Assembly: GCF_013488225.1 (NCBI RefSeq) | Contig: NZ_CP041241.1 | Location: 1,364,001 to 1,428,000, forward strand | DNA length: 64,000 nucleotides | Origin: Sinorhizobium mexicanum | Lineage (GTDB): Bacteria > Pseudomonadota > Alphaproteobacteria > Rhizobiales > Rhizobiaceae | Reading direction: 5' to 3' | Part shown: positions 32,170 to 59,196 of the stretch, in pieces | Layout of the letters: each line of letters begins with the position of its first letter | Position numbering within the stretch: the first letter of the stretch is position 1 | The notes under the pieces: model-generated | The model's database searches: none | Seen by the model: only the letters and a program-made list of their open reading frames with translations | What the model was told of the DNA's origin: nothing | Program-made: the position numbers and the translations under genes

Positions 32170-32559
32170 TGGTCTCGGTTTCCGCGATCCAGGATGCGAG
32201 CGACAGCCCGCGCAGAACAATATTTGTGAAAATTATCACAGAAATTATCCTGCGGGCAAGCGGGTTCGGTCGGACGCAGGCTAGGGGCAGGCAACCGCGG
32301 TATCCGGCCGTCAACGCGTCGATCGCGTCAACCACCCGCGAGGACCGCGCAACGAGTTCGTCCATGAAAACGCTGGAGAATGGCATTTCCGGTGATTGTT
32401 GGCGGAGTCTCCTGACCCTGAATTCCGCTCTCCGTCAATCGCTCCGGTTGCAGCCTCGCACAAGCGGTCTGCTTGCCGCGTGGGCGATTGACAAGCCCCC
32501 GAGAACGTTGACAAAGTGACGCTCAATCGAGACGGGCAGCATTGGGAGGACTTAAGTCT
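32170..32559. other. Divergent 390-bp spacer between deoR and the alpha-2-macroglobulin gene
   Basis: No convincing gene is seen. The deoR-proximal part is AT-rich and holds the TGTGA-N6-TCACA palindrome. The distal part contains two TTGACA sequences (32488 and 32508) that could be -35 elements for the alpha-2-macroglobulin gene, without clear -10 partners. A GGGAGGAC ribosome binding site lies at the right end. Confidence 0.5.
32225..32240. promoter_or_regulatory. TGTGA-N6-TCACA palindrome upstream of deoR
   Basis: TGTGAAAATTATCACA is a perfect 5-bp-arm palindrome 56 bp before the deoR start. It has the form of a CRP/FNR-type site but could equally be the regulator's own operator. Confidence 0.45.
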
Positions 32560-38016: not shown

Positions 38017-38023
38017 ACGCGCC

Positions 38024-42260: not shown

Positions 42261-43529
42261 CTACTGTACGAGGATGGCTCGAAAATCGTTGACATTGGTG
42301 CCTGTGGGTCCCGGCTTGAAGATATCGCCGAGTGCATCGAATGCGGTCCAGCTATCGTTGCATTGAAGCAGTGCTGACGGGTCCAACCGCTCTCCCCTGA
42401 GCCTGGCAATCGTCGTGCTGTCGGCAAAGGCGCCGGCATTGTCTTCCGAACCGTCGATGCCATCGGTGTCGGCAGCCAGCGCAGATACACCTTGGATGCC
42501 GTCGATACCGAGTGCCAGCGATAAGAGGAATTCGCTGTTGCGGCCGCCCTTTCCCTCGCCCTTGATAGTCACGGTCGTTTCGCCACCCGAGAGGACGACG
42601 ACCGGCTTCGAGAACGGGCGGCTGCGCTGAGCCACTTCGCGCGCGATTGCGGCATGGACGCGCCCGACTTCGCGTGCCTCGCCTTCGATCGCGTCGGAAA
42701 GGATGATCGCCTCGATCCCGGCTTCACGGGCACGCGCGGCCGCAGCCTCCAGCGAGACGGCGGCGGAGGCGATCAGGCGCACTTCGTTTCGGGCAAACCT
42801 CGGATCGGACGGCGTCGGCGCGTCCGCAGCATCCGTCGCCAGCCACTGCATGACCTTTTCCGGCAACGACAGCCCGTAGCGCGCGACAATCTTCAAGGCG
42901 TCCCGGCGCGTGCTTTCGTCGGCGATCGTCGGACCGGAGGCGACCAGCGCCGGATCGTCGCCCGGGATGTCGGAGACGACAAGTGAGACGACTTTCGCGG
43001 GATAGGCGGCCGCTGCGAGCCTGCCGCCCTTGATCGTTGACACATGCTTGCGCACGCAGTTCATGGCGCTGATCGGCGCGCCGGAGGCGAGAAGAGCGCG
43101 ATTGAAGGCGATTTCATCCTGCAACGACAGGCCGGCCGGTGGCGAAGGCAGGAGCGCAGAGCCGCCGCCGCAGATCAGCGCCACGACCAGATCGTCCTTG
43201 GTCAGGCCGCGAACCTCGGCGAGAAGGCGTTTCGAGGCATGCAGCCCGCTTTCGTCCGGCACGGGATGGGCGGCCTCCAGCACCTCGATGCGTTCGCAAT
43301 GAACGCCGAAGCCGTAGCGGGTGACGACGGCACCGCTCAGCGGATCGTGCCAGAGGCTTTCGAAGGCGTGCGCCATCTGCGCGGCACCCTTCCCCGCCCC
43401 GACGACAACGGTCCGCCCCTTCGGCCTTTCCGGCAGGTTCGAGGCGATGACGAGGGCGGGATCGGCAGCGGCGACGGCCGAAGTGAACAGCGTTTCGAGA
43501 AAGGCGCGCGGGTCGGCGATCGGTGCCAC
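42261..43529 (-). CDS. Glycerate kinase (GckA/TtuD type, MOFRL domain)
   Basis: 422 residues from a GTG start with GGGAG upstream. It has the family pattern VVVGAGKGAAQMAHAFE near the N-terminus, VALICGGGSALLPSPPAG in the middle and the C-terminal MOFRL region with VVLSGGETTVTIKG and ALAADTDGIDGSEDNAG. It phosphorylates D-glycerate, usually to 2-phosphoglycerate in this family. It ends the gcl-hyi-glxR set and would send the carbon from glyoxylate into glycolysis. Confidence 0.88.
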   Translation of the reverse strand: MAPIADPRAFLETLFTSAVAAADPALVIASNLPERPKGRTVVVGAGKGAAQMAHAFESLWHDPLSGAVVTRYGFGVHCERIEVLEAAHPVPDESGLHASKRLLAEVRGLTKDDLVVALICGGGSALLPSPPAGLSLQDEIAFNRALLASGAPISAMNCVRKHVSTIKGGRLAAAAYPAKVVSLVVSDIPGDDPALVASGPTIADESTRRDALKIVARYGLSLPEKVMQWLATDAADAPTPSDPRFARNEVRLIASAAVSLEAAAARAREAGIEAIILSDAIEGEAREVGRVHAAIAREVAQRSRPFSKPVVVLSGGETTVTIKGEGKGGRNSEFLLSLALGIDGIQGVSALAADTDGIDGSEDNAGAFADSTTIARLRGERLDPSALLQCNDSWTAFDALGDIFKPGPTGTNVNDFRAILVQ

Positions 43530-43636
43530 GTTTATGTCTCCCAGAAAATGAAGGGCGGCGGCCTCCTCACTGCCGCCCCACGGATGAACGTTTCAAGGCT
43601 TCTTCGAAGCCCATGAAACGTTCTGCCCCTTCGAAC

Positions 43637-44521
43637 CTATGCAACCTGATGGTTGGCCATCCGCTCGAGCGCCCGAACGAGGCCGGAATGGTCGAGCCCG
43701 CTGTCGCCGTTGGCTGCGCAATTGTTGAAGAGTTCCTGGGTGGCCGCCGTGTTCGGCAGCGAGATGCCGAGGCTCTTTGCGCCCTGCAGGGCCAGATTGA
43801 GATCCTTCTGGTGCAGCGAGATACGGAAACCCGGATCGAAGGTGCGCTTGATCATCCGGTCGCCATGGACCTCGAGAATGCGCGAGGAAGCAAAGCCGCC
43901 CATCAGCGCCTCACGCACCCGTGCCGGATCGGCACCGGCCTTGGACGCAAAGACCAACGCTTCGGAGACTGCCTCGATCGTCAGTGCAACGATGATCTGG
44001 TTGGCAACCTTGGTGACCTGGCCGTCGCCGCAGTCGCCGACAAGGGTGATGTTCTTGCCCATCAGCTTGAACAGCGGCAGGGCGCGATCGAACGATTCCT
44101 GCGAGCCGCCGGCCATGATGCTCAGCGAGGCATTCCTTGCCCCGACTTCGCCGCCGGAAACTGGCGCGTCGAGGTATTCCGCGCCCGTTTCACGAACCCT
44201 CCTGGCGAATTCCTTCGTTTCGATCGGCGAGATCGAGCTCATGTCGATGACCAGCTTGCCCCTATCAAGGCCGTAGAAGACGCCGTTCTCGCCGAAGAGG
44301 ACATCCTTCACTTCCGGCGTGTCCGGCAGCATCAGGATGATCGTATCGACGGTCTCGGCGAGCGCCTTCGGCGTCTCGACAAATCTGAGGCCGTTATCGA
44401 CGAGCTCCTGGCGCGGCGGGATGGCGAATTTCGACGTGATGATCGTATGCCCGGCATCCTGCAGGTGACGCGCCATCGGCGTGCCCATGATACCCAGTCC
44501 AATGAAACCGATAGATGCCAT
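43637..44521 (-). CDS. glxR: Tartronate-semialdehyde reductase (2-hydroxy-3-oxopropionate reductase)
   Basis: 294 residues from the ATG giving MASIGFIGLGIMG; upstream in-frame sequence lies in the hyi spacer and gene. It has the beta-hydroxyacid dehydrogenase pattern: Rossmann GLGIMGTPMARHL, the substrate-binding DAPVSGGEVGARN and the catalytic Lys in GQVTKVANQI. It reduces tartronate semialdehyde from Gcl to D-glycerate with NAD(P)H. It follows hyi by 5 bp, so the genes are co-transcribed. Confidence 0.92.
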   Translation of the reverse strand: MASIGFIGLGIMGTPMARHLQDAGHTIITSKFAIPPRQELVDNGLRFVETPKALAETVDTIILMLPDTPEVKDVLFGENGVFYGLDRGKLVIDMSSISPIETKEFARRVRETGAEYLDAPVSGGEVGARNASLSIMAGGSQESFDRALPLFKLMGKNITLVGDCGDGQVTKVANQIIVALTIEAVSEALVFASKAGADPARVREALMGGFASSRILEVHGDRMIKRTFDPGFRISLHQKDLNLALQGAKSLGISLPNTAATQELFNNCAANGDSGLDHSGLVRALERMANHQVA

Positions 44522-44526
44522 CGTGC

Positions 44527-45342
44527 TTAGCTCCTGATTTTGATGATGTCTGCGGACTGCTTGCGCTTGCGCTCGGCACCCAGCCAGCCCAGCCCATCGG
44601 CCGTCGTCGTGAGCGGCTTGTATTCGCACCCGATCCAGCCGTCGTAGCCGGCCGCCTCCAGCGCGTCGAATACGAAGGGATAGTTGATCTCACCGGTGCC
44701 AGGTTCGTTGCGACCCGGATTGTCGGCAAGCTGGACGTGGGCGATGCGGTCGGCGAAGCGCTTGTAGGTGCCGGCCAATTCACCCTGCGTGCGCTGCTGG
44801 TGATAAAGATCGTACTGGATGAAGAGATTGTCGCTCCCGACCTCGGCGATGATAGAGGCCGCCTGCTCCACGGTGTTGAGATAAAAACCCGGAATATCGA
44901 ATCGGTTGATCGGCTCGATCAGGAGGCGGATGCCACTCTTGCCGAGTTCGGTTGCCGCGAGCTTCAGGTTCGCAACCAGCGTCGTGCGCAGGATATTGTC
45001 GGAGACGCCGTCCGGCGCGATGCCGACGAGGCAATTGACCTGCTTGCAATCGAGCGCGGTCGCGTAGTCGATGGCGGTCGCAACGCCTTTGCGGAATTCG
45101 TCGATACGGTCCGGAAGAATGGCGATGCCGCGCTCGCCGCGCGCCCAGTCGCCGGCCGGCAAGTTGTGCAGAACCTGGGTCAAGCCATGACGGTCGAGTG
45201 CGGCACGCAACGCCATCTTCTCGAACTCATAGGGGAAGAGATATTCCACCCCCTCGAAGCCCGCCTTGGCGGCCAGCGCAAAGCGATCGAGGAACGGCGC
45301 CTCGTTGAACAGCATGGTCAGGTTCGCAGCAAATCTCGGCAT
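44527..45342 (-). CDS. hyi: Hydroxypyruvate isomerase
   Basis: 271 residues from the ATG giving MPRFAANLTMLFNEAP, the usual Hyi opening. TIM-barrel motifs of the AP-endonuclease-2/xylose-isomerase-like family follow: EGVEYLFPYEF, LLIEPINRFDIPGFYLN with the metal-binding Glu, DLYHQQ, HVQLADNPGRNEPGTGEINY, and a C-terminal WIGCEYKP with the second catalytic Glu. It interconverts hydroxypyruvate and tartronate semialdehyde. It lies between gcl and glxR. Confidence 0.92.
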   Translation of the reverse strand: MPRFAANLTMLFNEAPFLDRFALAAKAGFEGVEYLFPYEFEKMALRAALDRHGLTQVLHNLPAGDWARGERGIAILPDRIDEFRKGVATAIDYATALDCKQVNCLVGIAPDGVSDNILRTTLVANLKLAATELGKSGIRLLIEPINRFDIPGFYLNTVEQAASIIAEVGSDNLFIQYDLYHQQRTQGELAGTYKRFADRIAHVQLADNPGRNEPGTGEINYPFVFDALEAAGYDGWIGCEYKPLTTTADGLGWLGAERKRKQSADIIKIRS

Positions 45343-45367
45343 GCGATTGTTCCTCCTGGAAGTTGAC

Positions 45368-45412
45368 GCGGGACGCGGGCGGAAAAACCGCACACACTTT
45401 TCCTCGTCCCGC
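45368..45412. repeat. Palindromic intergenic repeat between hyi and gcl
   Basis: Arms GCGGGACG and CGTCCCGC flank a GGCGGAAAAACCG and CACACTTTTCC core resembling the repeat at 26511-26553. It could form a hairpin in the gcl-hyi transcript. Confidence 0.55.
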
Positions 45413-45423
45413 TTTGATTGTTC

Positions 45424-47208
45424 TCAGTCGAGAAGGGCGGCGATCGCCGTCGGCACGTCCTCACCACGGGCGGCGAGTTCCTCGAATTCGACGACGGCGT
45501 TGATGTCGGCGCCCATGGCGATGTTCGTTACGCGCTCGAGAATGAACTCGATGACGACAGGGACCCGATGTTCATCCATCAGCGCCCGCGCCTTGTCGAA
45601 GGCTTCAGCGAATTCGTTGGGGCTGCGGACGCGGATCGCCTTGCAGCCCAGACCTTCGGCGACCGCGACGTGATCGACGCCGTAACCCTTCTCGGCATCG
45701 CCGCCGGCATTGATGTTGTCGAAGGCGAGGCTGACCTCGAAATCCATGTTGAAGCCGCGCTGCGCCTGGCGGATGAGGCCGAGATAGGAATTGTTCACGA
45801 CCACATGCAGATAGGGCAGCTTGTGCTGCGCGCCGACGGCGAGTTCCTCGATCAGGAACTGGAAATCATAATCACCGGAAAGCGCGACGATCGGCCGGTC
45901 TGGATCGGCAGCCCTGACGCCTAGTGCTGCCGGCAGCGTCCAGCCGAGCGGACCCGCCTGGCCGCAATTGATCCAGTTGCGCGGCTTGTAGACGTGCAGG
46001 AACTGCGCACCGGCGATCTGGCTGAGGCCGATGGTCGAGACGTAGCAAGTGTCGCGGCCGAAGGCCCGGTTCATTTCCTCGTAGACCCGCTGTGGCTTGA
46101 GCGGCGTCTGGTCGAAGTGGGTCTTGCGCAGCATTGTGCGCTTGCGCTCGCGGCACTCTTCGGCCCAGGCCGACCAGTCGCGCAATTTGCCGGCGGTCTT
46201 CCATTCGGTGGCAACGTCGAGGAAGAGCTTGAGCGCCGCACCCGCGTCCGAGACGATGCCGAAATCCGGCGCAAAGACACGACCGATCTGGGTCGGCTCG
46301 ATATCGACATGAACGAACTTCCGGCCTTCGGTATAGGTCGGGACGTTGCCCGTGTGGCGGTTGGCCCAGCGATTGCCCACGCCGAGCACGAAGTCGGAGG
46401 CGAGCAGCGTCGCGTTGCCGTAGCGATGAGACGTCTGCAGGCCGCACATGCCGGCCATCAGCGGGTGGTCGTCCGGGATCGTGCCCCAGCCCATCAATGT
46501 CGGAACGACCGGGATGCCGGTGATCTCGGCGAATTCGACCAGAAGGTCCGAAGCGTCGGCATTGATGATGCCGCCACCCGCGACGATCAGCGGTCGCTCG
46601 GCCTCGTTCAGCATGGCGATGGCCTTTTCGGCCTGCGCGCGGGTCGCCGACGGCTTATAGGGCTCAAGTGGCGAATAGGTTTCCGGGTCGAACTCGATCT
46701 CGGCGAGTTGAACATCGACCGGGAGGTCGATGAGAACCGGACCCGGTCTGCCGGAACGCATCAGGTGAAACGCCTTCTGGAAGACGAATGGGACCAGGGC
46801 TGGCTCCATGACCGTGACCGCCCATTTCGTGACAGGGCCTGCGATCGAAGCGATATCGACGGCCTGGAAATCCTCCTTGTCGAGGCGGGCGCGCGGCGCC
46901 TGGCCGGTGATGCAGAGGATCGGGATCGAGTCGGCGGAGGCCGAATAGAGGCCGGTGATCATGTCCGTGCCGGCCGGGCCCGAGGTGCCGATGCAGACAC
47001 CGATGTTGCCGTGCCTGGCCCGCGTATAGCCTTCCGCCATATGCGAGGCGCCTTCGACGTGACGGGCGAGAATGTGGCGGATCGACCCGCGCGCCTTCAA
47101 AGCCGAATAGAGTGGGTTGATTGCGGCGCCCGGAACACCGAACGCGCAATCGATCCCCTCCTTTTCCAGAACATAAACTGCCGCATCGACCGCGCGCATC
47201 TTGGCCAT
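45424..47208 (-). CDS. gcl: Glyoxylate carboligase (tartronate-semialdehyde synthase)
   Basis: 594 residues, the usual Gcl length. The ThDP-enzyme catalytic Glu is replaced by Val51 in [14 protein letters not shown], the hallmark of glyoxylate carboligase. The ThDP/Mg motif is [36 protein letters not shown]. It joins two glyoxylates to tartronate semialdehyde and CO2. It is first in the gcl-hyi-glxR-glycerate kinase operon, preceded by GGAGG, and faces a divergent IclR regulator. Confidence 0.95.
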
Positions 47209-47380: not shown

Positions 47381-48202
47381 ATGGAGTTGACGGGCAAGGG
47401 AAAGCGCGGCCGCAAGGCCGCCGAGAATGCCGCGCCATCGTCCGTGCAAGTGCTCGACCGCAGCCTGGCGCTCCTGGCGATCGTTGCCGAAAACGACGAC
47501 TCGACGCTGACCTCGCTTTCGGAGCGCACCGGCATGGCGCCCTCGACCGTGCACCGGCTGCTCACCTCGCTCGCCTCCCACGGCATGGTCATGAACGATA
47601 GCGACACGGGTGTGTGGACGGTCGGCCTCAAGGCCTTCGAAATCGGCAATGCCTTTCTGCGCTTTCGCAAGCTCGGGACGATTAGCCGCCCGTTCCTCAA
47701 AGGACTGATGGAGGCCAGCGGCGAAACGGCCAATATCGGTATCGAGGAAGGCGGCGATGTCGTCTTCATCTCTCAGGTCGAGAGCCATGCGCCGATGCGG
47801 GCTTTCTTCCGGCCGGGGCGGCGTGGCCCGGTCCACGCGTCGGGCATCGGCAAGGCTATCCTGTCGACGTGGTCCGACAAGGAAATCGGCCAGTTGATGT
47901 CCGGCCGAACCCTCATCCACTTTACCGAGAAGACACGTGATACGCTGCCCGGCCTGTTGCGGGACATTCAGGAAACACGGCTCAGGGGCTGGTCGATCGA
48001 CGACGAGGAGCACACGCTTGGCATGCGCTGCGTTGCGGCCCCGATCTTCAACGAATATGGCGAGACGATCGCCGGCATATCGATCTCGGGCCCCTCGGTC
48101 CGGGTAACCGACGAAAAGCTCGCCACCCTCGGGCCGATGGTCAGAGAAACCGCCGATGCCCTGACACGCGCGATGGGCGGCAAGCGGCCGGAGGAACTGT
48201 AG
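47381..48202 (+). CDS. IclR-family regulator of the glyoxylate pathway
   Basis: 273 residues with GGAGA upstream. Residues about 20-80 are the winged helix (LTSLSERTGMAPSTVHRLLTSLASHGMV). Residues about 85-260 are the IclR effector domain with VHASGIGKAILSTWS and GMRCVAAPIFNEYGETIAGISISG. It probably responds to glyoxylate or a purine breakdown product (allantoate, ureidoglycolate), as AllR does. It is divergent from gcl. Its 3' end is echoed by a decayed copy at 56425-56603. Confidence 0.88.
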   Translation: MELTGKGKRGRKAAENAAPSSVQVLDRSLALLAIVAENDDSTLTSLSERTGMAPSTVHRLLTSLASHGMVMNDSDTGVWTVGLKAFEIGNAFLRFRKLGTISRPFLKGLMEASGETANIGIEEGGDVVFISQVESHAPMRAFFRPGRRGPVHASGIGKAILSTWSDKEIGQLMSGRTLIHFTEKTRDTLPGLLRDIQETRLRGWSIDDEEHTLGMRCVAAPIFNEYGETIAGISISGPSVRVTDEKLATLGPMVRETADALTRAMGGKRPEEL

Positions 48203-48276
48203 CGGAAGGCAAATTCCGGCGGCAGCTTCTATTGGCGCGCACCTCCGCCCCGCGGACCGTCAATTATGCAACTGTA

Positions 48277-49233
48277 CTATGAGAGCAGTCGTGCCCATGG
48301 TTTGACCAAGCTCAGATAGACATCCATCAGCCTCTGGAGATGATCAATCACACGCTGGTCGTCCAGAACCGGCACTTCGGAATGTCGCCGAACCATATAG
48401 AGCGTACGCGTGAGGGCAGGCTTTATGATGCGGCGAGCGGCGAGCGTTCCTTCGCGCACTTCTTTAGCGATCAAGCTGTAGGGCATGATCATCGCCGCGG
48501 CGCCAGACGCGATTGAATCGATCGAATGAACTTCATGGGCAATGCGAACGTCGAGCGACAATCTCCTGGCTTCGCTTTCGACAATATGACGCAGAACGCC
48601 GCGTTCGCCGCCAATTGCAAGGTCGTATTGCAAAGCCTCTGTAAATTCGATGCTTTCTTCCTGTGCGGCCTGGCTCGAAGCGGTGACGAACAGAAGATCC
48701 TCCTCCAGGACCGCTGTCCGTTTCAAGCCGGACCATTCACCGACATTGTTGAGGAATGCGACATCGACTTCTCCCGCTTCCAATGCATGCAACAGCGTTG
48801 GTGGCCCCTCTTCAACGACGCGGACCGTGACATCTGGCATTGTTTGGTCCGCATCGGCCAAGAGATCTTGGCCGAGTAGCTTTGACATTGTTCGACCCAC
48901 GCCGAGCCGCAGTTCAATCCGCTTGGCGGCCTTGAGCGCACGGACTTCGTTGGCTGCCGTCGCGACATCATCGAGAATATGCTGCGCATGCGTGTAGAGA
49001 AGTCTGCCGGCCGGGGTTGGGGTGATGCCGCGCGAATGCCGCACAAGCAATTCGATGCCAAGCTCGCCTTCGAGCTGCTTGATCTGCGAGCCGAGTGCAG
49101 GTTGCGCGACGTTCAGCGTTTCGGCCGCAGCTGTCATGTTGCCCAGCTCGACAACCTTGCGGAAATAGGTCAACTGCCGAAAATTTATGTGACGTTCCTC
49201 CCAAAGTGTGACGACATTGCTTCTCGTCCGCAC
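48277..49233 (-). CDS. LysR-family regulator, probable controller of the 49326-56095 cluster
   Basis: 318 residues from the GTG at 49233, or about 303 if translation starts at an ATA codon (49188-49186) that follows GGGAGGAA at good distance and gives the usual LysR opening (I/M)NFRQLTYFRKVVELGN. The winged helix covers residues about 1-60 of the short form (NVAQPALGSQIKQLEGELG), followed by the two-lobed effector domain (ELRLGVGRTMSKLLGQ, HALEAGEVDVAFLNN). It is downstream of, and on the same strand as, the ThDP-enzyme gene. Conventional starts exist only further upstream with no clear ribosome binding site. Confidence 0.82.
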   Translation of the reverse strand: MRTRSNVVTLWEERHINFRQLTYFRKVVELGNMTAAAETLNVAQPALGSQIKQLEGELGIELLVRHSRGITPTPAGRLLYTHAQHILDDVATAANEVRALKAAKRIELRLGVGRTMSKLLGQDLLADADQTMPDVTVRVVEEGPPTLLHALEAGEVDVAFLNNVGEWSGLKRTAVLEEDLLFVTASSQAAQEESIEFTEALQYDLAIGGERGVLRHIVESEARRLSLDVRIAHEVHSIDSIASGAAAMIMPYSLIAKEVREGTLAARRIIKPALTRTLYMVRRHSEVPVLDDQRVIDHLQRLMDVYLSLVKPWARLLS

Positions 49234-49325
49234 TTGAGGGATCAGTTCGCCCCTTTTTGCCAAGACTACGGCGCATGCGTACCTTTTCACGCATGCGCCT
49301 TTCTTGACAAGCGTCAAGCGGTTGT

Positions 49326-51125
49326 TCAACCGGTGAATTGAGTAATCGTGTCGATCAGGGCGGGAACGCCGCTTTTCACTTTGGCAATGGCACGTTCCAG
49401 TGCCGGGCCGATGTCCGCCGGATCCTCGATTGGGCCTTCCGCATACCAGCCGCATCCTCGGGCCAGCGTTGCGAAATCGGGGGCAGGATCAAACAAGTCC
49501 ATGCCGATATGCGCGCGGTTGACCGGCGTCCCGCGCTGTTCGGCCACGGTCACCTGGTGTTCCCAATCGTTGTAATAGGCGCGGTTGTTGTGCATGACAC
49601 AGAGGAACGGCACCTTGTGCTTGGCAGCGAACCAAAGCGCGCCGACATCGAAGAGCAGATCGCCGTCCGTCTGGCAATTGACCACCAGGCGACCCGTGCC
49701 GCGATGCGCAAGCGCGATGCCAAGGGAAATGCCTATCTGTGTTCCAGGACCGAGACCTCGGCCTGCCCAGCGATAATGCCTGTCGAAATCCCAGAGCTTG
49801 GGTGCCCAGTCCTCGAACGGGTTCGTGGTCAGGACCCAGTCCTCATGCCTGATCTTCTCCCACACCTCGCTGGCAAGGCGCGGCAGTGCAATCGGGCTGG
49901 CATTCCAGTTCTCACTCGCTTCCTCGCGCCATTTCGCGCGTTGGGCATCATGCATCCCGGCCACCGCGTGCGACCGTTCCTCTATGCGCCTTGCAAGATG
50001 TCTATCGTCCCTGGAACGTTTTGAAATCAGCGAGGTGAGCGCCGGCATTGCAAGGGCCGGATCGGCAAGCAGCCGCTGCGAACAATCAGGGTAGCGCTGA
50101 TAATCGGCTGCCCATTTTGAAATTTCGATATCGGCAAAGCCGATGTCCAGCCACTCGCACCCCTTCGGGTAAAGAGGTTGCAGTGTACGGTTGATCCGGT
50201 CGTTCACGTGGGTCGGTCGCTCCCAGTCCCGACAATCGAGCAAGGTGATGAGATCGGCCTGTTTGAAGACCTCTTTGTTCATGCGCATGTCGAGTGGATG
50301 CTCGGTAGGGAAGTTCAGACGCCATTGCGTGTCGACGACAGGCGCACCGAGCGCTTCGGCAAGCGCGACAGTATTGGAAAAGCCATTCGGATCGCAACCG
50401 ACGTATTGCGGAAGCAACACCGGCCATTCGGCCGAAACGAGGCGGTCCGCGGCTTCTTCCAGCGCTTTCGGATCGGGTGCTATGCGGCTCGGTACCGTTG
50501 CCGAAGCGGGTGACGGCAAGGTAACCGGTGCAGCAAGGGGCGCTTCCTGCAGCGCGGCATCATAGACCATGTAGATCGGACCGCGCGGCTCCGTCATCAT
50601 GATCGAATAGGCGCGGGCAAAACTGTCGACGACACCGTCGATGCCGCCTGGCTGGTAATCCCACTTGACGTAATCGCGCACCTGGGTGCCCTGAACATTG
50701 GCCGTATGAGCCCAATCGACGCGGGGGCGGCGCTTTCCTTCGTCCATCGGGCCGGTGGCGCCGATCAAGAAAACCGGCGCACGGTCCGTGTAGGCGGTAT
50801 AAACGCCGAGGGTCGCATGAAGCAGACCGACAACGTTGTGGACGATCACGGCAAGCGGCTTACCTGTCGCCTTGGCATAGCCATGCGCGATCTCGACGGC
50901 GATTTTTTCATGCAGGCAGACCAGCATTTCCGGCGTGTTGCCATTGTGATTGACAAGCGAGTCGTGCAGGCCGCGATAACTGGCGCCTGGATTGAGCGTG
51001 ATGAAGGGAAAACCGTATTGCTTGATCAGATCGGCGATCACATCGGACTGCCATCCGAACGGTGCCGAACCTTCGCTCTCCTCCAGCGCCTTGGCCTTCG
51101 GATCAACCTTCTCCTGCATCGTCAT
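49326..51125 (-). CDS. ThDP-dependent decarboxylase/synthase-like enzyme, substrate unknown
   Basis: 599 residues. It shows the three-domain ThDP enzyme plan: an N-terminal PYR domain with the catalytic Glu73 in CLHEKIAVEIAHGYAKATGK, a central domain, and a C-terminal PP domain with NCQTDGDLLFDVGALWFAAKHKVPFLCVMHNNRAYYNDWEHQ, the GDG-like ThDP/Mg motif ending in NN. It is unlike Gcl, which has Val in place of this Glu. The nearest types by eye are benzoylformate decarboxylase and acetolactate-synthase-like enzymes. With the aldehyde dehydrogenase in the same cluster it probably turns a 2-oxo acid into an aldehyde. The true substrate is open. Confidence 0.82.
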   Translation of the reverse strand: MTMQEKVDPKAKALEESEGSAPFGWQSDVIADLIKQYGFPFITLNPGASYRGLHDSLVNHNGNTPEMLVCLHEKIAVEIAHGYAKATGKPLAVIVHNVVGLLHATLGVYTAYTDRAPVFLIGATGPMDEGKRRPRVDWAHTANVQGTQVRDYVKWDYQPGGIDGVVDSFARAYSIMMTEPRGPIYMVYDAALQEAPLAAPVTLPSPASATVPSRIAPDPKALEEAADRLVSAEWPVLLPQYVGCDPNGFSNTVALAEALGAPVVDTQWRLNFPTEHPLDMRMNKEVFKQADLITLLDCRDWERPTHVNDRINRTLQPLYPKGCEWLDIGFADIEISKWAADYQRYPDCSQRLLADPALAMPALTSLISKRSRDDRHLARRIEERSHAVAGMHDAQRAKWREEASENWNASPIALPRLASEVWEKIRHEDWVLTTNPFEDWAPKLWDFDRHYRWAGRGLGPGTQIGISLGIALAHRGTGRLVVNCQTDGDLLFDVGALWFAAKHKVPFLCVMHNNRAYYNDWEHQVTVAEQRGTPVNRAHIGMDLFDPAPDFATLARGCGWYAEGPIEDPADIGPALERAIAKVKSGVPALIDTITQFTG

Positions 51126-51190
51126 GCATTCCGCTCCTTGGGTAAGAAAATGAGCGGCGGAGGCCGCCGCCCAACAGAAACGTTTGCCGA

Positions 51191-52192
51191 TCAGTCTTTC
51201 TTGAGGGCCTGCTTCAAAAACCCGACCATTTCCGGCGATTGATCGAGTGCCTTCTTGACCAGATCGGCGACTTCGTCACCAATGGCCGGGTCGAGCGGCA
51301 GACCGAGCTTATCGGCTTTGGCGACGAACTCCGGATCGGATATTGCTGCGGAATAAGCGTCCCGCAACGTCTTCAGGATGTCGTCGGGAATCCCCTCCGG
51401 ACCCACGGTAAGGCGCGAAATGTCGCTCTGCGATTCAACGAGTGCGATGGCCTTTTGCGCTTCCGCGTTGTCGACCAACGTTGCCAGCTGAGGAACATCG
51501 GTATCCGAGCCACCAATCTGCGCAAGGAACTTGCCATGGCCTTCCTTGACGAAGGGTTCGAAGCTCGACCGCGAACTGATCACACCCTGCACTTCGCCCC
51601 GCATGATGGCGAGCTGGTCGTCATTGCCGCTGTAGCCGCTGATGATATCAATCGGCAGCTTCAATGCGCTAACCAGGATCGTTGTGTTGACCTCCGACGC
51701 ACTGCCTGCTCCCGAAGTGGAGAACTTCAGCTTCTTGTCGAGACTCTGCAGTTCCTTGAAATCCTTGATATTGGCGTCAGCCGCTACGACAACCACACGC
51801 GGATCCGAGGCTGCCTTGCCGATCCACGACATCTTCGTGAGGTCGAACCTGACGCCTTCGTTTCCAGAGAGCTGGCTATAGACCAGCCCCGTGTTGAAGC
51901 TACCGATCGTCAGTCCGTCCGGGGTCGACGCAGCGATGTAATTTGCGCCAAGGAGGTTGCCGGCCCCGGGCATGTTGCGCACGACGAAGGTCGAGCCCGG
52001 CAGGTGCTTCTGCATGAACTCGCAGACCAGTCGGCCATAGGTGTCATAACCACCGCCGGGTTCGGTCGCGATGATGTAATTCACCGTTTTACCGTTGAAG
52101 TATTCTGGCCCCGATTGCGCCATGGCAACCGTTGCCCATCCACATGCAAGAAGAGCGGCACCAGCTGCGATGCCTCTCGAAAAAATAGTCAT
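51191..52192 (-). CDS. TctC/Bug-family periplasmic substrate-binding protein
   Basis: 333 residues from the ATG after GGGAGGAGTTCA. The signal peptide is MTIFSRGIAAGAALLACGWATVAMA. The Bug/TctC pattern follows: GKTVNYIIATEPGGGYDTYGRLV, FVVRNMPGAGNLLGANYIAAS and GEVQGVISSRSSFEPF. These proteins serve the tripartite tricarboxylate transporters, yet no TctA or TctB gene is in this window. It may feed a distant transporter or act in sensing. It would bind a carboxylated substrate of the cluster. Confidence 0.87.
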   Translation of the reverse strand: MTIFSRGIAAGAALLACGWATVAMAQSGPEYFNGKTVNYIIATEPGGGYDTYGRLVCEFMQKHLPGSTFVVRNMPGAGNLLGANYIAASTPDGLTIGSFNTGLVYSQLSGNEGVRFDLTKMSWIGKAASDPRVVVVAADANIKDFKELQSLDKKLKFSTSGAGSASEVNTTILVSALKLPIDIISGYSGNDDQLAIMRGEVQGVISSRSSFEPFVKEGHGKFLAQIGGSDTDVPQLATLVDNAEAQKAIALVESQSDISRLTVGPEGIPDDILKTLRDAYSAAISDPEFVAKADKLGLPLDPAIGDEVADLVKKALDQSPEMVGFLKQALKKD

Positions 52193-52383
52193 TGAACTCC
52201 TCCCTTTCGCTCTACACTGTTGCCGAGAACCCTCGGCAACGTGGCTGCCCAGCCAGCCAATTCCTCCAAACGACAAGCCTCCCTGGCCGCGCAGATCCAA
52301 TCCGACCGCGCCGCACGCTCACGTCTTTTCAGATGATGATGGACACGTCCTCTGCTGTGCCGCTCACCACCAGGGGCGACCGC

Positions 52384-53862
52384 TCACGACGCCGTTTGCG
52401 CCCGCGCCCCGGAGAAGTGGATGTTGATGTTCTTCTCCTGTGTCGCGGCAAGGAGTTCCTCGAGACACTCCTCGCGGCCCAGACCAGACTGTTTGTAGCC
52501 GCCGAAGGGCGCCCCGAGCACGTGCCGGCTGGTGCTGTTTACCCAGATATAACCCGCCTGAACTGCCGCCGCCGCACGATGCGCCTTTTCCAGGTCGTTG
52601 GTGTAGATCGACGAGGTCAGCCCGTATTCGACGCAATTGACGTCCTTCAGCATGGCGTGTTCATCAGACCACCGGATAACCGACTGCACGGGGCCGAAGA
52701 TCTCTTCCATGGCGATGCGCATCGATTGCTTCACGTCGACGAAGACTGTCGGCTCGATAAAACAGCCCTCTGCAAGCTCCGGATTATCGGGTCGCTTACC
52801 GCCATAGACGACGCGCGCTCCCTCCCGCTTCCCGGTTTCGATATACCCGAGAACCTTTTCGTAGTGCGCGCGGCTAATCAGCGATCCCATAGTCGTTGCA
52901 GGGTCGGTTGGCAGGCCGGGCTTGAAGCGGCTGATATATTTGCCGATGCGCTCAACAACTTCGTCATGAATGGCATCATGCAGGAAGAGGCGACTCATCG
53001 AGCCGCAGGATTGACCGCACCAAGCGTAGTTCATGCCGCTGACGGCTGCCGCCGCAACACGGTCCGGATCGGCATCCGGAAAGGCGATGAGCGCATTCTT
53101 GCCTCCAAGCTCCAGCGCCACCTTCTTCAGAGTATCGGCTGCCGAACGCATCACCGCTCGGCCGGTCGGAACGCTGCCGACGAGCGAGACGGCCGCAATC
53201 GACGGGTGCGATGACAAGACCTGGCCGAACTCGCGACCGCCTGTCAGCACATTGAGCGTCCCGGCAGGGAAAAGCGGACCGATCAGTTCTGCAAGGCGGA
53301 GCCCTGACAGTGGCGCCTGTTCGGACGGCTTCAGGATGACGGCGTTGCCGGCTGCCAGCGCGGAGGCGATCTTGCTCGCGCAGAACTGGAATGGATGATT
53401 GAACGCCGTAATTCTGGCCACGATACCGAGCGGTTCTCGTACGGAGAAATTGATGGCATCCGGCCCGACCGGTATCGAAGCTCCCTTCATCTCCGTCACG
53501 AGACCTGCAAAATATTCAAATCTCTGGACAGCCGAGACCGCATCCTTGACCATCGGTGTCATCGGATTGCCGCCATCGACCGCATCGAGCAAGGTCAGTT
53601 CCGGACCGTGGCGGCGGATGACCGCCGCCGCTTCCTTCATGATCTTGCCCCGCTCAAGCGGCAGGACGTTGCGCCATTCCTCAAAACCCTTCTGCGCCGC
53701 AGCAATCGCCCGTTCCGCATCTTCCAAGGTCGCTTCCGGAACCGGGCCGAGGTCCTCGCCGGTTGCCGGGCTGATGCTGTGCTTCACTCCGCCCCTGACG
53801 GGAGCGTGCCAGCCACCGCCGTAGAAGAGCGCGCGCTCCGCCGGGAAAACGATATCTCCCAT
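52384..53862 (-). CDS. Aldehyde dehydrogenase of the 49326-56095 cluster
   Basis: About 492 residues; starts at 53862 or 53871 are both possible near GGGAGGA. ALDH hallmarks are present: ARITAFNHPFQF in place of the usual PWNFP, VSLVGSVPTGRAV, the Glu in LELGGKNALIAF and the catalytic Cys in WCGQSCGSMSR. The C-terminal motif is APFGGYKQSGLGREECLEELLAATQEKNINI. It resembles aromatic and betaine-type aldehyde dehydrogenases. It probably oxidises the aldehyde made by the ThDP enzyme in the same cluster. Confidence 0.87.
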   Translation of the reverse strand: MGDIVFPAERALFYGGGWHAPVRGGVKHSISPATGEDLGPVPEATLEDAERAIAAAQKGFEEWRNVLPLERGKIMKEAAAVIRRHGPELTLLDAVDGGNPMTPMVKDAVSAVQRFEYFAGLVTEMKGASIPVGPDAINFSVREPLGIVARITAFNHPFQFCASKIASALAAGNAVILKPSEQAPLSGLRLAELIGPLFPAGTLNVLTGGREFGQVLSSHPSIAAVSLVGSVPTGRAVMRSAADTLKKVALELGGKNALIAFPDADPDRVAAAAVSGMNYAWCGQSCGSMSRLFLHDAIHDEVVERIGKYISRFKPGLPTDPATTMGSLISRAHYEKVLGYIETGKREGARVVYGGKRPDNPELAEGCFIEPTVFVDVKQSMRIAMEEIFGPVQSVIRWSDEHAMLKDVNCVEYGLTSSIYTNDLEKAHRAAAAVQAGYIWVNSTSRHVLGAPFGGYKQSGLGREECLEELLAATQEKNINIHFSGARAQTAS

Positions 53863-53915
53863 TACTTCCATTCCTCCCACAGCAGCCCGACCGATGGTCG
53901 TCGGTAGATCTTTCT

Positions 53916-55208
53916 TCAAAGAGCGGGTTGGGGCGGCGTCTGCTCCCGCGCCGGTGCGGCGGTCGAACCCCGATAGTTTCCATATTTGATCAGGTTCTGC
54001 CGTTGAGCGTCATTGCGGGGCTCCAGCTTGAAGAGGCGGGCCGCTGTTCCACCGATGATGTTGTGCTTCGCCCTATCGCTGAGAAAAGGGAGATCCCAGA
54101 TGGTCGACGGCAAGTCGAAATCCCAGTGAGGATAATCCGAAGCATACATCAGCTGCGTTTCGGCATTCATCATCCGAAACGTCGTTTCCAGGGCCTGCAT
54201 GTCCTGGATTTCCATCGGCTGCGTGGAATAGAACATGTCCCGCATGTAGTCCGACGGCTTCTTCTTCAGAAGCGGACATTCCGAGGGGCGGAGCATGAAT
54301 TCATGATCGAGCTTCTGCATGAGGAAGGGGATCCATGCCAGCCCGGATTCGATCCAGATGACCGGCAGCTTGGGGAACCGCTCGCCCATGCCGTTCACAA
54401 CCCAGTTGGTGCAGTGCAGAATGCTGAACCAGCTAAAGCCGAGAGCGTGCGCGGAAATAAAGCGGTTGCAGCTTTGGAAGGTCGAGGAGTTCCAGTTCGG
54501 CCCCGAATGGAATGCAAGCGCAAGCCCACGCTCCTCCAGAGCCCGATAGAGCTTCATATAGGCGTTGTCATAGACGGCCATCTTCTCTCGGACGGACGTG
54601 ACCATGAAACCGCCTACGCCTTTGCGGTCACCGAAGGTTTCCACCATGCGCAGACAGCCTTCCGGATCGCTGAAAGGCAGGCCCAGCATCGTGTACATGC
54701 GACCCTGCGATTCCGGCAGGACCTTCTCGGTCACCCAGCGGGCATAGGCCCAGGACAGTTCGAACTCCATTTCCTTCTGGGGATGCAGGCCGATATTCAG
54801 CATGCCCGTCGGAAAGAGGCATGAATAATCGACCCCCATTGCGTCCATCCAGCGAAAGCCGAGCTCGACATCCCGCTTCGGCCCCTTCTCGACAGGCGTC
54901 TTCTCTGACGACCGCATGGGATAACGGGTTACGCGCCCACCCATGTCTTGCCAGCCGTAGCCGACCGGCGAAATATGACCGCGTCCTTTCGTGCGGCTGG
55001 AAAGCGAGAGCTGCTTGAAGACCTCGTTTTCCATAAAGGGGATGATCTCGGAGAGATTTTCATTCTCGTAATGATGCGCATCGCAATCTACGATCAGCAC
55101 ATCTTCATATCTGCGGTCACGCGCCTGCTTGGCGGCATGATCGAGAAGCCTGGTCGTGTTGAGGTCTTCGATAGGGACGCGGCGGCCGCGATCGGAAATA
55201 AGGTCCAT
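53916..55208 (-). CDS. Amidohydrolase-2 (ACMSD-like) family metal-dependent hydrolase or decarboxylase
   Basis: 430 residues from the ATG giving MDLISDRGRRVPIEDL; the upstream open stretch is in the neighbouring gene. The ACMSD-type pattern is present: metal motif VDCDAHHYEN, then LAFHSGPNWNS, ERFPKLPVIWIESGLAWIPFLMQKLDHEF and the catalytic Asp in MYASDYPHWDFD, ending with NIIGGTAARLFKL. The family includes non-oxidative decarboxylases and hydrolases of aromatic or cyclic acids. It probably removes a carboxyl group or opens a ring early in the cluster's pathway. Confidence 0.82.
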   Translation of the reverse strand: MDLISDRGRRVPIEDLNTTRLLDHAAKQARDRRYEDVLIVDCDAHHYENENLSEIIPFMENEVFKQLSLSSRTKGRGHISPVGYGWQDMGGRVTRYPMRSSEKTPVEKGPKRDVELGFRWMDAMGVDYSCLFPTGMLNIGLHPQKEMEFELSWAYARWVTEKVLPESQGRMYTMLGLPFSDPEGCLRMVETFGDRKGVGGFMVTSVREKMAVYDNAYMKLYRALEERGLALAFHSGPNWNSSTFQSCNRFISAHALGFSWFSILHCTNWVVNGMGERFPKLPVIWIESGLAWIPFLMQKLDHEFMLRPSECPLLKKKPSDYMRDMFYSTQPMEIQDMQALETTFRMMNAETQLMYASDYPHWDFDLPSTIWDLPFLSDRAKHNIIGGTAARLFKLEPRNDAQRQNLIKYGNYRGSTAAPAREQTPPQPAL

Positions 55209-55254
55209 GGTGGCTTTGCTTTCAAAGAGATTGTCTGGCTGAGGCAAGCTGCGG

Positions 55255-55743
55255 TTATCGCGAACTCCAGCTCTGCCAGAGGGCGAGCTCGAACACCTGC
55301 AGATCGACGGCTTTGAGCAGCGCACCGCACAGAACCATCGCATCGGTTGCCGTGACCGTCGTCTGTTCGCTGAGCACGTCGAAATGATTGCCTCGTTCGT
55401 CATTTGCCGCATAGAGCCGGCAAAGCGCGCTCATGAGCGCCTGTTGTGCGCCAACATCGATGCGGCCAGGATCATCGTCGGAAACTGCCGTCTCGATCTC
55501 GGCCGCCATTGCCAGCATGGAAGCCGACAACTGATGGAGAGGCTGAGATTCTGACGATGGTTGCGCCGGGATCCGGCGCAACAGCTCCACCTGCGGCGCT
55601 GCTGCCTCACCCTGCTTTTTGCGCTCCACGATCCGGGCCGCTTCGGTTCCCGATTCGATGCCTTTGAAAACAGCCTTCACGAAGGCGACCTTTTCCGCCG
55701 CATCGGGTTCACAGGCCGAGACCATGCGTTCAGACGACGACAT
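55255..55743 (-). CDS. Hypothetical protein between the amidohydrolase and Rieske genes
   Basis: 162 residues from the ATG 8 nt after GGGGGAGG (55743); another ATG lies 6 bp upstream. The sequence is mostly helical and acidic, with two stretches that may be amphipathic helices (QLSASMLAMAAEIETAVSDDD and IDVGAQQALMSALCRLYA), and ends in ALWQSWSSR. I recognise no domain and see no signal peptide or membrane helix. It overlaps the Rieske gene by 14 bp, so it belongs to the operon. Confidence 0.6.
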   Translation of the reverse strand: MSSSERMVSACEPDAAEKVAFVKAVFKGIESGTEAARIVERKKQGEAAAPQVELLRRIPAQPSSESQPLHQLSASMLAMAAEIETAVSDDDPGRIDVGAQQALMSALCRLYAANDERGNHFDVLSEQTTVTATDAMVLCGALLKAVDLQVFELALWQSWSSR

Positions 55744-56095
55744 AGACATCCTCCCCCTTCTGCAAGACTTGATATTTGCGCAAGCGGACTCTGCGATCGG
55801 CAATGTGCTGGCCGGTGCGCATATCGTATTCATAGCCATGCCAGGGACAGGCGAAGCTCATGTCCTTCTCGGAAAAGAAGAGACCCATTGATGTCTTGTC
55901 AGGTCGCAGGCGCTCCTCGACCCGCGCGATAATCAGCCCTTCGCAAGCCGGGCCACCCTGGTGAACGCAATAATTGCTATAGGCGAAAAATTCGCCCTCG
56001 TGCCTGAACACGCCGATTTCATCATCGCCGATCCGAATGATCCGCCGTTCACCGTCCTTGAATTCGAACGACTTACAGACGTATTGCTCGCCCAA
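55730..56095 (-). CDS. Rieske [2Fe-2S] ferredoxin-like protein
   Basis: 121 residues from a TTG with AGGGAGG 6 nt upstream. The two cluster-binding boxes are clear: YCVHQGGPACEG (Cys-x-His) and CPWHGYEYDMRTG (Cys-x2-His). It is small and lacks an oxygenase catalytic domain, so it resembles the ferredoxin component of Rieske oxygenases or a small nitrite-reductase-D-like protein. No oxygenase or reductase gene is adjacent. It is first in the minus-strand cluster, so it is the promoter-proximal gene. Confidence 0.85.
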   Translation of the reverse strand: MGEQYVCKSFEFKDGERRIIRIGDDEIGVFRHEGEFFAYSNYCVHQGGPACEGLIIARVEERLRPDKTSMGLFFSEKDMSFACPWHGYEYDMRTGQHIADRRVRLRKYQVLQKGEDVYVVV

Positions 56096-56424
56096 AATTG
56101 ACCTCCCTTGACTGCATGCTTTGGAGCATCGTTCACTTGCCGAGATAGTCGGCTTTTGCTGCGATACTCTGTTGGACGCAGCATTCGACGGCACTGCCGT
56201 TGCGTCCAGAACATTCGATTTAGCTTAGCGATAGCTTTTTCTTTGGTCTGCGGTAGGCTTTTGAATTAATTATCAAATTACAGTGCACTTCAGCTTCGTG
56301 CACACGTGTATCCGTGAATATGACGCCGGTTCTTGCCGGTGCGGAGCTCTCCTTCGAGCGACGAGCGGCACTCTGCAATCGTGACAGTGGACGGCCTCGC
56401 GGCAACGGTCTTCAAAAATATCGG
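56096..56424. other. Upstream region of the Rieske cluster
   Basis: No gene is supported in this 329-bp stretch. It holds the likely promoter of the minus-strand cluster, including an AT-rich run at 56260-56280 and the TGCAC/GTGCA repeat at 56284-56302. The right part borders the IclR remnant. Confidence 0.5.
56284..56302. promoter_or_regulatory. Candidate LysR-type binding site
   Basis: TGCAC and GTGCA arms separated by 9 nt contain the T-N11-A core expected for LysR boxes. The site is about 190 bp upstream of the Rieske gene, in the region where the cluster's promoter should be. Confidence 0.4.
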
Positions 56425-56603
56425 GTGACGATCGCCGGCATATCGATGTCGGCCATTTCGTAGAGATGACGGATGCAAAACCCGCCATCCGCGGCCTGAT
56501 GGCGCGAGAAACCGCCGACGCCTTGACCAGTGCCGTGGGCGCGCAAGCGGCCGGAAAACTGCAACCGGCCGGAACACAAGTCCCGGCCGGCGTGGTCGTT
56601 TAA
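56425..56603 (+). pseudogene. IclR-family 3' remnant
   Basis: The start (ACGATCGCCGGCATATCGAT) is identical to codons for TIAGISI in the IclR gene at 47381-48202. After a stop codon and frame change, the sequence continues as MTDAKPAIRGLMARETADAL, matching VTDEKLATLGPMVRETADAL of that gene, then ends at 56603. Only the C-terminal ~60 residues remain, with at least one frameshift. It is a decayed paralogue or an old duplication, on the far side of the Rieske/ThDP cluster from the intact gene. Confidence 0.78.
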
Positions 56604-56611
56604 GATCGTGA

Positions 56612-57957
<1,346 letters not shown>

Positions 57958-57961
<4 letters not shown>

Positions 57962-59196
57962 TGAAGCTTTCCTTCCTTCGCCGCGGTTTCATACCAGGAG
58001 ACCAGCAGGCGGCGTTCTTCTTCGGTTACACCGGTGACATTGGCGGGCGGCATGGCGTGCGATCGCCCGGCCTGCAGATAAATCTCGCGGGCATGCGCGA
58101 CGATGTCGCCGTCGTTTTCGAGGACGACACCCTTCGGGGGCACGACGAGCCCCTCCCAGCCGGGTTCCTTGGCATGACACATGGAGCAGCGGCCGAGTAC
58201 GGTGTCGCGTACCTTTTCGAAGTCCGCCGACGCGACAACGGCCTGTTCGGCCGTTGAAGCTCGGGCTTCGCCGCCCTCGGAAAGAACCTTGGGCACGGTC
58301 GAAAGCCACATGATCACGATGAAAAGCACCGCCGTGACGAGCCACGTCCAGGTGGGGCTGCCCTTGCGGGCGTGGCGGGTGTTGAACCAGTGGCGGATCG
58401 TGACCCCCATTAGGAAGACGAGCGAGGCGATCATCCAATTGTACTGAGTGCCGAAGGCCAGCGGATAGTGGTTCGACAGCATCAGGAACAGCACGGGCAG
58501 CGTCAGGTAGTTGTTATGGGTCGACCGCTGCTTTGCCTGCTTGCCGAGTGCCGGGTCCGGCGTCCGACCCGCGATCAGATCGGCGACGACCTTCTTCTGG
58601 TTCGGAATGATGATGAAGAACACGTTCGCCGACATGATCGTCGCCGTGAATGCGCCGAGATGCAGATAGGCGGCACGGCCGGTGAAGAGCTGGGTGTAGC
58701 CCCATGCGACGCCCACAAGCACGAAATAGAGCAGCACCATCAGCCGGGTGTTGTCGTTGCCGAGCGGCGAGCGACAGACCCTATCATAGGCGAGCCAGCC
58801 GAAGGCGAGCGAAGCGAGCGAAATGGCAATCGCCGCCGGCTTCGACACGTCGAGCACGCTCGGATCGATCAGATAGAGGTCGGCACCGGCATAATAGACA
58901 AGAGCAAGCATGCCGAAGCCCGAAAGCCAAGTGACGTAGGACTCCCATTTGAACCAGATCAGGTGCTCGGGCATGTTTTCCGGCGCCACCAGATATTTCT
59001 GGATATGATAGAAGCCGCCGCCGTGGACCTGCCATTCCTCGCCATAGGCACCGACCGGCAGGCCCTGTCCCTGTCTCAAACCCAGGTCGAGCGCGACGAA
59101 GTAAAAGGACGAACCGATCCAGGCGATGCCGGTAATGACATGCAGCCATCTCACGGCAAATGTCAGCCAGTCCCAGGCAATGGCAAATTCATACAT
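57958..59196 (-). CDS. puuD: Membrane-bound cytochrome c urate hydroxylase PuuD
   Basis: 412 residues. The N-terminal ~300 residues have about eight hydrophobic helices (VRWLHVITGIAWIGSSFYFVALDL, then HLIWFKWESYVTWLSGFGML). The C-terminus is a cytochrome c domain with one haem-binding CSMCH and the Met ligand likely in HAMPPANVTG. This matches PuuD, which oxidises urate and passes electrons to the respiratory chain instead of making H2O2. It heads the puuD-guaD operon. Confidence 0.93.

Follow-up and report, generated by a model that had tools for sequence, protein, structure and literature searches.

The 64-kb stretch analysed here (hereafter the window; positions 1,364,001 to 1,428,000 of the 1.93-Mb contig NZ_CP041241.1 of Sinorhizobium mexicanum) carries seven consecutive genes, all on the minus strand. 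They lie where an earlier note, made from the sequence alone, had placed them, and its gene list was confirmed. In transcription order, they encode a small Rieske protein, an unknown protein, an "amidohydrolase", an aldehyde dehydrogenase (ALDH), a TctC protein, a thiamine diphosphate (ThDP) enzyme and a LysR regulator, and matches above the curated Pfam cut-offs were obtained for Rieske, Amidohydro_2, Aldedh, TctC, TPP_enzyme_C, TPP_enzyme_N and LysR (two domains). As set out below, the cassette that contains them is a mobile catabolic unit, very probably headed by a monooxygenase of the amidohydrolase-related dinuclear oxygenase (ARO) type with a likely, undescribed third component. Its features are as follows.

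48204–56393: the inserted cassette, about 8,190 bp long, with IclR-gcl on one side and guaD-puuD on the other; the site is empty in L116–L121
55730–56095, minus strand: small Rieske [2Fe-2S] protein, 121 aa, TTG start, with C43-x-H and C83-x2-H (PF00355, 52.9 bits; motif)
55255–55743, minus strand: unknown protein of 162 aa, of an undescribed family, with a predicted four-helix core at residues 71–161 (homologues, linkage, model)
53916–55208, minus strand: putative ARO, 430 aa from ATG, with D43, H45, H234, E287, D358, H361 and second-sphere D363 (solved relatives, ligand columns)
52384–53919, minus strand: aldehyde dehydrogenase of 511 aa (start at TTG) or 495 aa (start at ATG, 53871), with ELGGKN and GQSC (PF00171, 484 bits)
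51191–52192, minus strand: TctC/Bug-type periplasmic binding protein, 333 aa, with a hydrophobic leader (PF03401, 73.5 bits)
49326–51125, minus strand: ThDP enzyme, 599 aa, with Glu73 and His96 aligned to benzoylformate decarboxylase residues and a C-terminal DGD...NN (PF02776/PF02775)
48277 to about 49240, minus strand: LysR regulator, start uncertain (about 49190–49250) (PF00126 and PF03466)
56228–56247, minus strand: ACCAAAGAAAAAGCTATCGC, a conserved block in the promoter region about 150 bp ahead of the Rieske gene, a candidate regulator site (kept in L010, L011, L041 and L125)
56394–56587, plus strand: second, decayed copy of the IclR 3' end, in direct repeat with the one at 48030–48203 (124/162 identical to L116)

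The Rieske and unknown-protein genes overlap by 14 bp, and the ARO and ALDH genes by 4 bp, given the ALDH start at TTG. At position 56095, where the earlier note ended the cluster, the Rieske gene starts with TTG, directly preceded by a GGGAGG ribosome site; beyond this position lie a promoter region (56096–56393) and, from 56394, the decayed copy of the IclR 3' end.

The "amidohydrolase" belongs to PF04909 (69.2 bits) and had been called an ACMSD-type decarboxylase or hydrolase. This call did not hold. Its top solved relatives were 8sm7, 8sm9, 8sm6 (SfbO), AibH2 (6m1w_B) and 8sm8 (phmmer E 7.6e-32 to 4.4e-20), and these five ARO sequence entries ranked first among solved structures, above every decarboxylase; no mononuclear PF04909 decarboxylase (ACMSD, LigW) was its nearest solved relative, the best decarboxylase match being 5-carboxyvanillate decarboxylase (4icm) with E 1.3e-13 as against 7.6e-32 for 8sm7. 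PtmU3 and DitZ were likewise matched in the solved-structure search. According to the text of the source paper, 8SM6–8SM9 have redox-active dinuclear sites and were found through an adjacent small Rieske gene (PMC10811679), and Rieske neighbours are described as a hallmark of AROs (PMC10811679, PMC10401708); in the window, a small Rieske protein with CxH and CxxH motifs is encoded close to the putative ARO.

The metal ligands of AibH2 are given in the text of its paper as Asp25, His27, His211, Glu265, Asp337 and His340, with Asp342 in the second sphere (PMC7782822). All seven residues are kept in the window protein (DHHEDHD; positions 45...365 in the alternative 432-aa frame used for alignment). 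The same reading was found in every full-length relative with at least 45% identity among the loci collected for the alignment, in which frames cut at a contig or locus end are without some of the columns; a shortened match at 44% identity (L155) reads DHHET--. As an internal control, the AibH1-like paralogue in the same genome (first copy of L004) reads DHHEDHQ, AibH1 being the mononuclear partner as published (PMC7782822, from its text). A mononuclear, non-redox decarboxylase or hydrolase of the ACMSD or 5-carboxyvanillate decarboxylase type, with the Rieske protein serving an oxygenase elsewhere, would have the Pfam family PF04909 in common with the window protein and is detectable as its relative (4icm), but the rank of the five ARO entries, the conservation of the dinuclear ligands including the marker Asp, and a cassette without a Rieske oxygenase gene make this very unlikely. 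On its relatives and ligand columns, the protein is very probably an ARO, and its site is predicted to be dinuclear, probably Fe2 or Mn/Fe. The ARO relatives and the AibH2 ligand set together make the Rieske protein its probable electron donor.

At least three ARO-type systems are present in the genome: 1) that of the window, 2) a pair resembling AibH1H2, accompanied by a Rieske gene (L004; G000:C4, about 973845–975595), and 3) a single ARO whose neighbours are Rieske and VanB-type reductase genes (L003; G000:C1, about 1768819–1769679). In the latter two, which are distant ARO types, the Rieske gene is present and the gene of the 162-aa protein is absent.

The 162-aa protein matched no family in Pfam and NCBIfam at E <= 0.001. 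We found 223 homologues of it. Each of the 31 public-genome loci with this protein carries an ARO gene and 29 carry a Rieske gene, the remaining two (L023 and L040) being cut by a contig end at that place. When an iterated profile of 120 homologues was run over 16,574 stop-to-stop frames, all 75 matches lay within 1.5 kb of an ARO, a count in which one gene appears repeatedly where loci overlap. Since the profile loci had mostly been fetched around AROs or the small gene, a class-wide and a phylum-wide sample are the fairer tests. The class-wide sample of AROs comprised 22 non-own matches from 10 genomes; the small gene was present in 16 of 22, every time with a Rieske-motif frame alongside (16/16), and the short loci of the other six had neither. 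Wider stretches of those six showed that one (G209) has the Rieske and small genes together 5.8 kb off and that another belongs, as its second copy, to a tandem (L142/L149) which has both genes; for the last four, neither was found within about 8–10 kb. In the phylum-wide sample, the small gene lay between the Rieske and ARO genes in 4/4 new loci (2 genomes), with 4 matches among 873 frames. The profile had no match on twenty control stretches, each of 20 kb and hand-picked at round coordinates in five genomes rather than random. The Rieske-small-ARO trio is nearly universal in the clade of the window ARO, whereas the ThDP and ALDH partners are not.

A first structural model of the small protein, from 20 sequences, was poor (pLDDT 67.1, no PDB match). 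The second, from 121 sequences, reached pLDDT 78.8, with a four-helix core and block means above 90 over residues 71–140; it had no convincing PDB match, which does not prove a new fold. By its gene neighbourhoods, a small third protein is linked to the predicted ARO-Rieske pair across the Alphaproteobacteria, and we consider it likely that it is a true component of the oxygenase system. No small ARO component was found in the ARO literature searched, supplements and figures excepted.

Four known systems are worth comparing: 1) MmoB and TmoD are effector proteins of bacterial multicomponent monooxygenases and are likewise small extra proteins in a dinuclear oxygenase system; a shared role is an analogy only, the hydroxylase folds being unrelated (TIM barrel in the window, not four-helix bundle) and the window protein having no Pfam family. 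2) The mandelate pathway uses benzoylformate decarboxylase and benzaldehyde dehydrogenase, which resembles the ThDP-then-ALDH chemistry that the cassette may encode, but the cassette is headed by an oxygenase gene and has no racemase or mandelate dehydrogenase gene. 3) SfbO and the candidate AROs 8SM7–8SM9 share the PF04909 fold, the dinuclear ligand set and an adjoining small Rieske gene, as far as the text of the paper describes them (PMC10811679), but are distant from the window ARO (E values above); the window clade differs in its extra conserved small protein, the SfbO loci being compared by the paper's text alone, and the window cassette in its ThDP and ALDH partners. 4) The 2-aminoisobutyrate monooxygenase AibH1H2-AibG-AibF, from the text of its paper, also combines an ARO with a Rieske protein and has an ALDH in its cluster (PMC7782822), whereas 48204–56393 shows a single ARO copy and neither a second subunit like the noncatalytic AibH1 nor a recognisable reductase gene of the AibF type, which sets the cassette apart from the AibH1H2GF type, and a small helical protein is predicted instead.

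The boundaries of the cassette were determined from relatives in which the site is empty. Seven near relatives without it were found (IclR 96–97% identical), of which six were fetched (L116–L121) and the seventh (G607, near a contig end) was left out. In 6/6, the IclR-gcl locus directly follows guaD, and alignment of the flanks ended at 56394 on one side in all six and at 48203 (four) or 48205 (two) on the other, leaving 48204–56393 unmatched. More distant relatives (L122–L124) were uninformative on the empty site, because no guaD/puuD lies by IclR there. About 174 bp of the IclR 3' end is present on both sides of the insertion as a direct repeat, with the gene copy (158/174 identical to L116) better kept than the second (124/162). 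No integrase gene was recognised in the cassette (48204–56393).

The search for the same gene order in other genomes that the earlier note had proposed recovered the whole block of seven genes, in unchanged order, in Sinorhizobium sp. 6-70 (L010), S. terangae (L041), L125 and Rhizobium sp. P32RR-XVIII (L011), in the last at a different genomic site. Within the genus, the ARO was found at E <= 1e-60 in 4/33 genomes, the present one included. The seven genes are one unit, more than a chance grouping, and the linkage that the earlier note had allowed might be missing in relatives is kept. From its physical place, the cassette could be thought to serve purine or glyoxylate catabolism, being flanked by what we take to be garK-glxR-hyi-gcl with an IclR regulator (42261–47208; gcl was identified by NCBIfam) and guaD-puuD (56612–59196). 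However, since these genes are contiguous without the cassette in 6/6 fetched near relatives and the cassette sits elsewhere in L011, they are its landing site. A purine or glyoxylate role was rejected on the empty site and is most improbable.

The nearest PDB relatives of the ThDP enzyme are benzoylformate decarboxylases (4q9d, E 9.4e-29), and Glu73 and His96 align with a Glu and a His that we take to be catalytic in that enzyme. It falls below the cut-offs of the best 25 of 42 NCBIfam matches, scoring 117.5 bits for benzoylformate decarboxylase PRK07092 (equivalog cut-off 493) and 249.9 bits for the thiamine pyrophosphate-requiring protein PRK08327 (equivalog cut-off 456); it was thus not drawn into a characterised clade, whereas a place in such a clade would have told against the earlier note. 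In a ThDP tree, the ARO-linked enzymes occupy at least three separated places (window and family f106; Beijerinckiaceae-type, Thioclava and G028; Neorhizobium), which is a hint only, because branches are long and most rows were picked by likeness to the window enzyme. The ALDH is below the cut-offs of the best 25 of 40 NCBIfam matches. TctC was found in 17/48 ARO loci, always within 4 kb, as against 1/20 control stretches; no TctA or TctB gene is present in the cassette.

The gene context of related AROs bears on the pathway: 1) L182, from a genome (G684) of the same order and another family, repeats the order Rieske-small-ARO-ALDH-binding protein-ThDP, with a binding protein of another type (SBP_bac_8), ALDH at 47% and ThDP at 39–44% over two pieces; beside this set are genes for LysR, an alpha/beta hydrolase (pcaD-like), two dioxygenases (pcaH- and pcaG-like), two CoA-transferase subunits and a thiolase. 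2) L183, also from G684, has Rieske-small-ARO, with ALDH (57%) and ThDP 6–8 kb off and genes for a LigXa-type oxygenase and a VanB-type reductase. 3) In L131 (Thioclava), ARO, small, Rieske, alpha-hydroxy acid oxidase, ThDP, ALDH and pcaDCHG genes lie in 33 kb of one plasmid, ThDP being 12.7 kb and ALDH 15.6 kb from the ARO. 4) In G302, G408 and G498 (f106), tandem window-type ThDP genes (56–57%) lie 5.7–8.2 kb from ARO-Rieske-small-ARO, with FMN_dh genes nearby, TctA alongside in G408 and G498, and TctC in G408. 5) In Neorhizobium, the ARO is followed by ThDP within 200 bp. These linked genes suggest oxygenation at a position adjoining a carboxylate, oxidation to a 2-oxo acid, ThDP cleavage and aldehyde oxidation. 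In the present genome, the contig that carries the cassette also has a pcaH-type gene, and there is one full FMN_dh gene outside the cassette. The islands in G302:C22, G408:C2 and G498:C1 also contain five or six ThDP genes, FMN-dependent 2-hydroxy acid dehydrogenases, a molybdenum hydroxylase, a TauD-type oxygenase and MmgE/PrpD.

The best explanation as a whole, to which we give a rough probability of 0.6, is that a multicomponent monooxygenase with a dinuclear site (Fe2 or Mn/Fe) is encoded in the cassette together with downstream enzymes degrading an imported acid. The ARO would receive electrons from NAD(P)H by way of an unlinked reductase and then the Rieske protein. TctC would import the acid, and the ARO would oxidise the C-H bond adjoining its carboxylate to give, directly or via an unlinked dehydrogenase, a 2-oxo acid (or acyloin), which the ThDP enzyme would cleave to an aldehyde; the ALDH would then turn the aldehyde into an acid, probably aromatic, that feeds protocatechuate. 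The small protein may be a partner that the oxygenase cannot do without, possibly as an effector or for metal loading, and LysR would be the controller of the cassette. Of these parts, the ThDP-to-ALDH sequence is reasonably probable, the chances of an aromatic substrate are about even, and alpha-oxidation is put forward with some reserve. The earlier interpretation is thus retained in part: the breakdown, by way of an aldehyde, of a compound that bears a carboxylate and may be aromatic, with ThDP enzyme and ALDH acting in sequence, gained support from the distant relative L182, in which the gene order recurs beside protocatechuate genes, while the type assigned to the amidohydrolase had to be replaced.

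Several observations count against this explanation. Neither a reductase gene nor a 2-hydroxy acid dehydrogenase gene was recognised in the cassette (48204–56393), although the alpha-oxidation model wants the latter. Within 10 kb of the ARO, ThDP was found in just 7/24 lineage groups as against 2/20 control stretches and ALDH in 7/24 as against 1/20, the groups having been drawn by eye, several loci having short flanks, and the count leaving out a ThDP match close to the G258 ARO (L164) that was short, weak and below the threshold. In the 8 other genomes whose loci were fetched for a ThDP relative (E <= 1e-100), an ARO is near it in 3 (one family); in the remaining 5, the fetched stretches have none. 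In Phyllobacterium, the ThDP gene (81%) has TctABC next to it, and the surrounding 10 kb or so contain no ARO, the amidohydrolase-family gene near it belonging to a different cluster; therefore, the ThDP-TctC pair may have its own substrate. Finally, around the AROs closest to that of the window (mostly from Beijerinckiaceae-type metagenome-assembled genomes, MAGs), queries found no pca genes and matched only LigXa-like oxygenases (L023 and L028, 38–39%).

This last observation would suit a non-aromatic substrate, such as an aliphatic or N-heterocyclic acid, as would the molybdenum hydroxylase gene near the ARO in L076/L077, the formamidase-family gene in L074, L076 and L077, and the substrate of AibH2, a small aliphatic acid according to the text of PMC7782822. 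Against it, L182, L131, L129/L075 and L183 have pca, PobA-like, LigXa-like and CHA-aldolase-type genes in the neighbourhood of the ARO, and we regard such a substrate as possible but not favoured. For homarine or trigonelline, the literature search yielded nothing useful.

It is also conceivable that the ARO hydroxylates beside a ketone or makes an aromatic acyloin, from which a ThDP lyase of the benzaldehyde-lyase or cyclohexanedione-hydrolase type would release aldehydes for the ALDH, the substrates being lignin-derived dimers or cyclic ketones. Such a route makes a linked 2-hydroxy acid dehydrogenase unnecessary, one homologue bears the source name cyclohexane-1,2-dione hydrolase, and LigXa-like oxygenase and VanB-type reductase genes are near the ARO in L183 and L131. 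However, the f106, Rhodobacterales, Neorhizobium (L128) and G414 (L162) loci include linked genes for a 2-hydroxy acid oxidase or dehydrogenase, benzoylformate decarboxylase is the nearest solved ThDP enzyme, and TctC suits a carboxylate, so that we consider the acyloin route unlikely and prefer cleavage of a 2-oxo acid derived from an imported acid.

A LysR of one cluster was found in 25/51 loci, mostly immediately before the Rieske gene. The palindrome CCAAAG-N5-CTTTGG occurred before the Rieske gene in 10/28 regions with at most 2 mismatches, as against 7/526 control stretches; several MAG loci have it at this place. It is perfect in L012, L013, L014, L019 and L024, where it is a candidate LysR operator. 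The promoter block of the window has the left palindrome arm only, and since L010, L011 and L041 show 4 mismatches each, the palindrome is not claimed for the window. In the MAG loci, a NikR-like regulator gene (identified by Pfam on one representative, L012) lies close before the LysR-Rieske-small-ARO set in L012–L016, L018–L020 and L031 and before Rieske-small-ARO in L022. Seven of the NikR-like loci have a ThDP gene upstream of the NikR-like gene, and some sets are beside infB/truB. GMC neighbours are recurrent in the MAG loci like the NikR-like genes; both are outside the case of the window.

Farther out, the window contains a large gene, presumably alpha-2-macroglobulin-like, followed by what we take to be a penicillin-binding protein 1C-like gene (32542–40411), and a presumed maltooligosyltrehalose synthase-like gene (61356–63986).

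AROs are a young class of O2-activating enzymes. To our knowledge, they have two native substrates, 2-aminoisobutyrate and, for PtmU3, a diterpenoid. Orphan AROs number in the hundreds, 555 being listed in the text of PMC10401708. The family itself is already known; both its extra component here and the setting in a pathway count as new within the reach of the literature searches. We tentatively suggest, as a rather doubtful possibility, that there is a separate alphaproteobacterial class of amidohydrolase-fold dinuclear monooxygenases needing a dedicated small helical third subunit (effector or metal-loading, like none known), one use of which would be O2-driven alpha-oxidation, shortening aromatic carboxylic acids to acids of the protocatechuate type with the help of a ThDP decarboxylase and by way of an aldehyde. 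The cassette offers a testable context for such an enzyme, with a ThDP enzyme, an ALDH, an uptake protein and a regulator in a mobile 8-kb unit. If the small protein is indeed a component, ARO reconstitutions made without it would be incomplete. The cassette is also a warning that genes labelled amidohydrolase next to a small Rieske gene probably encode oxygenases.

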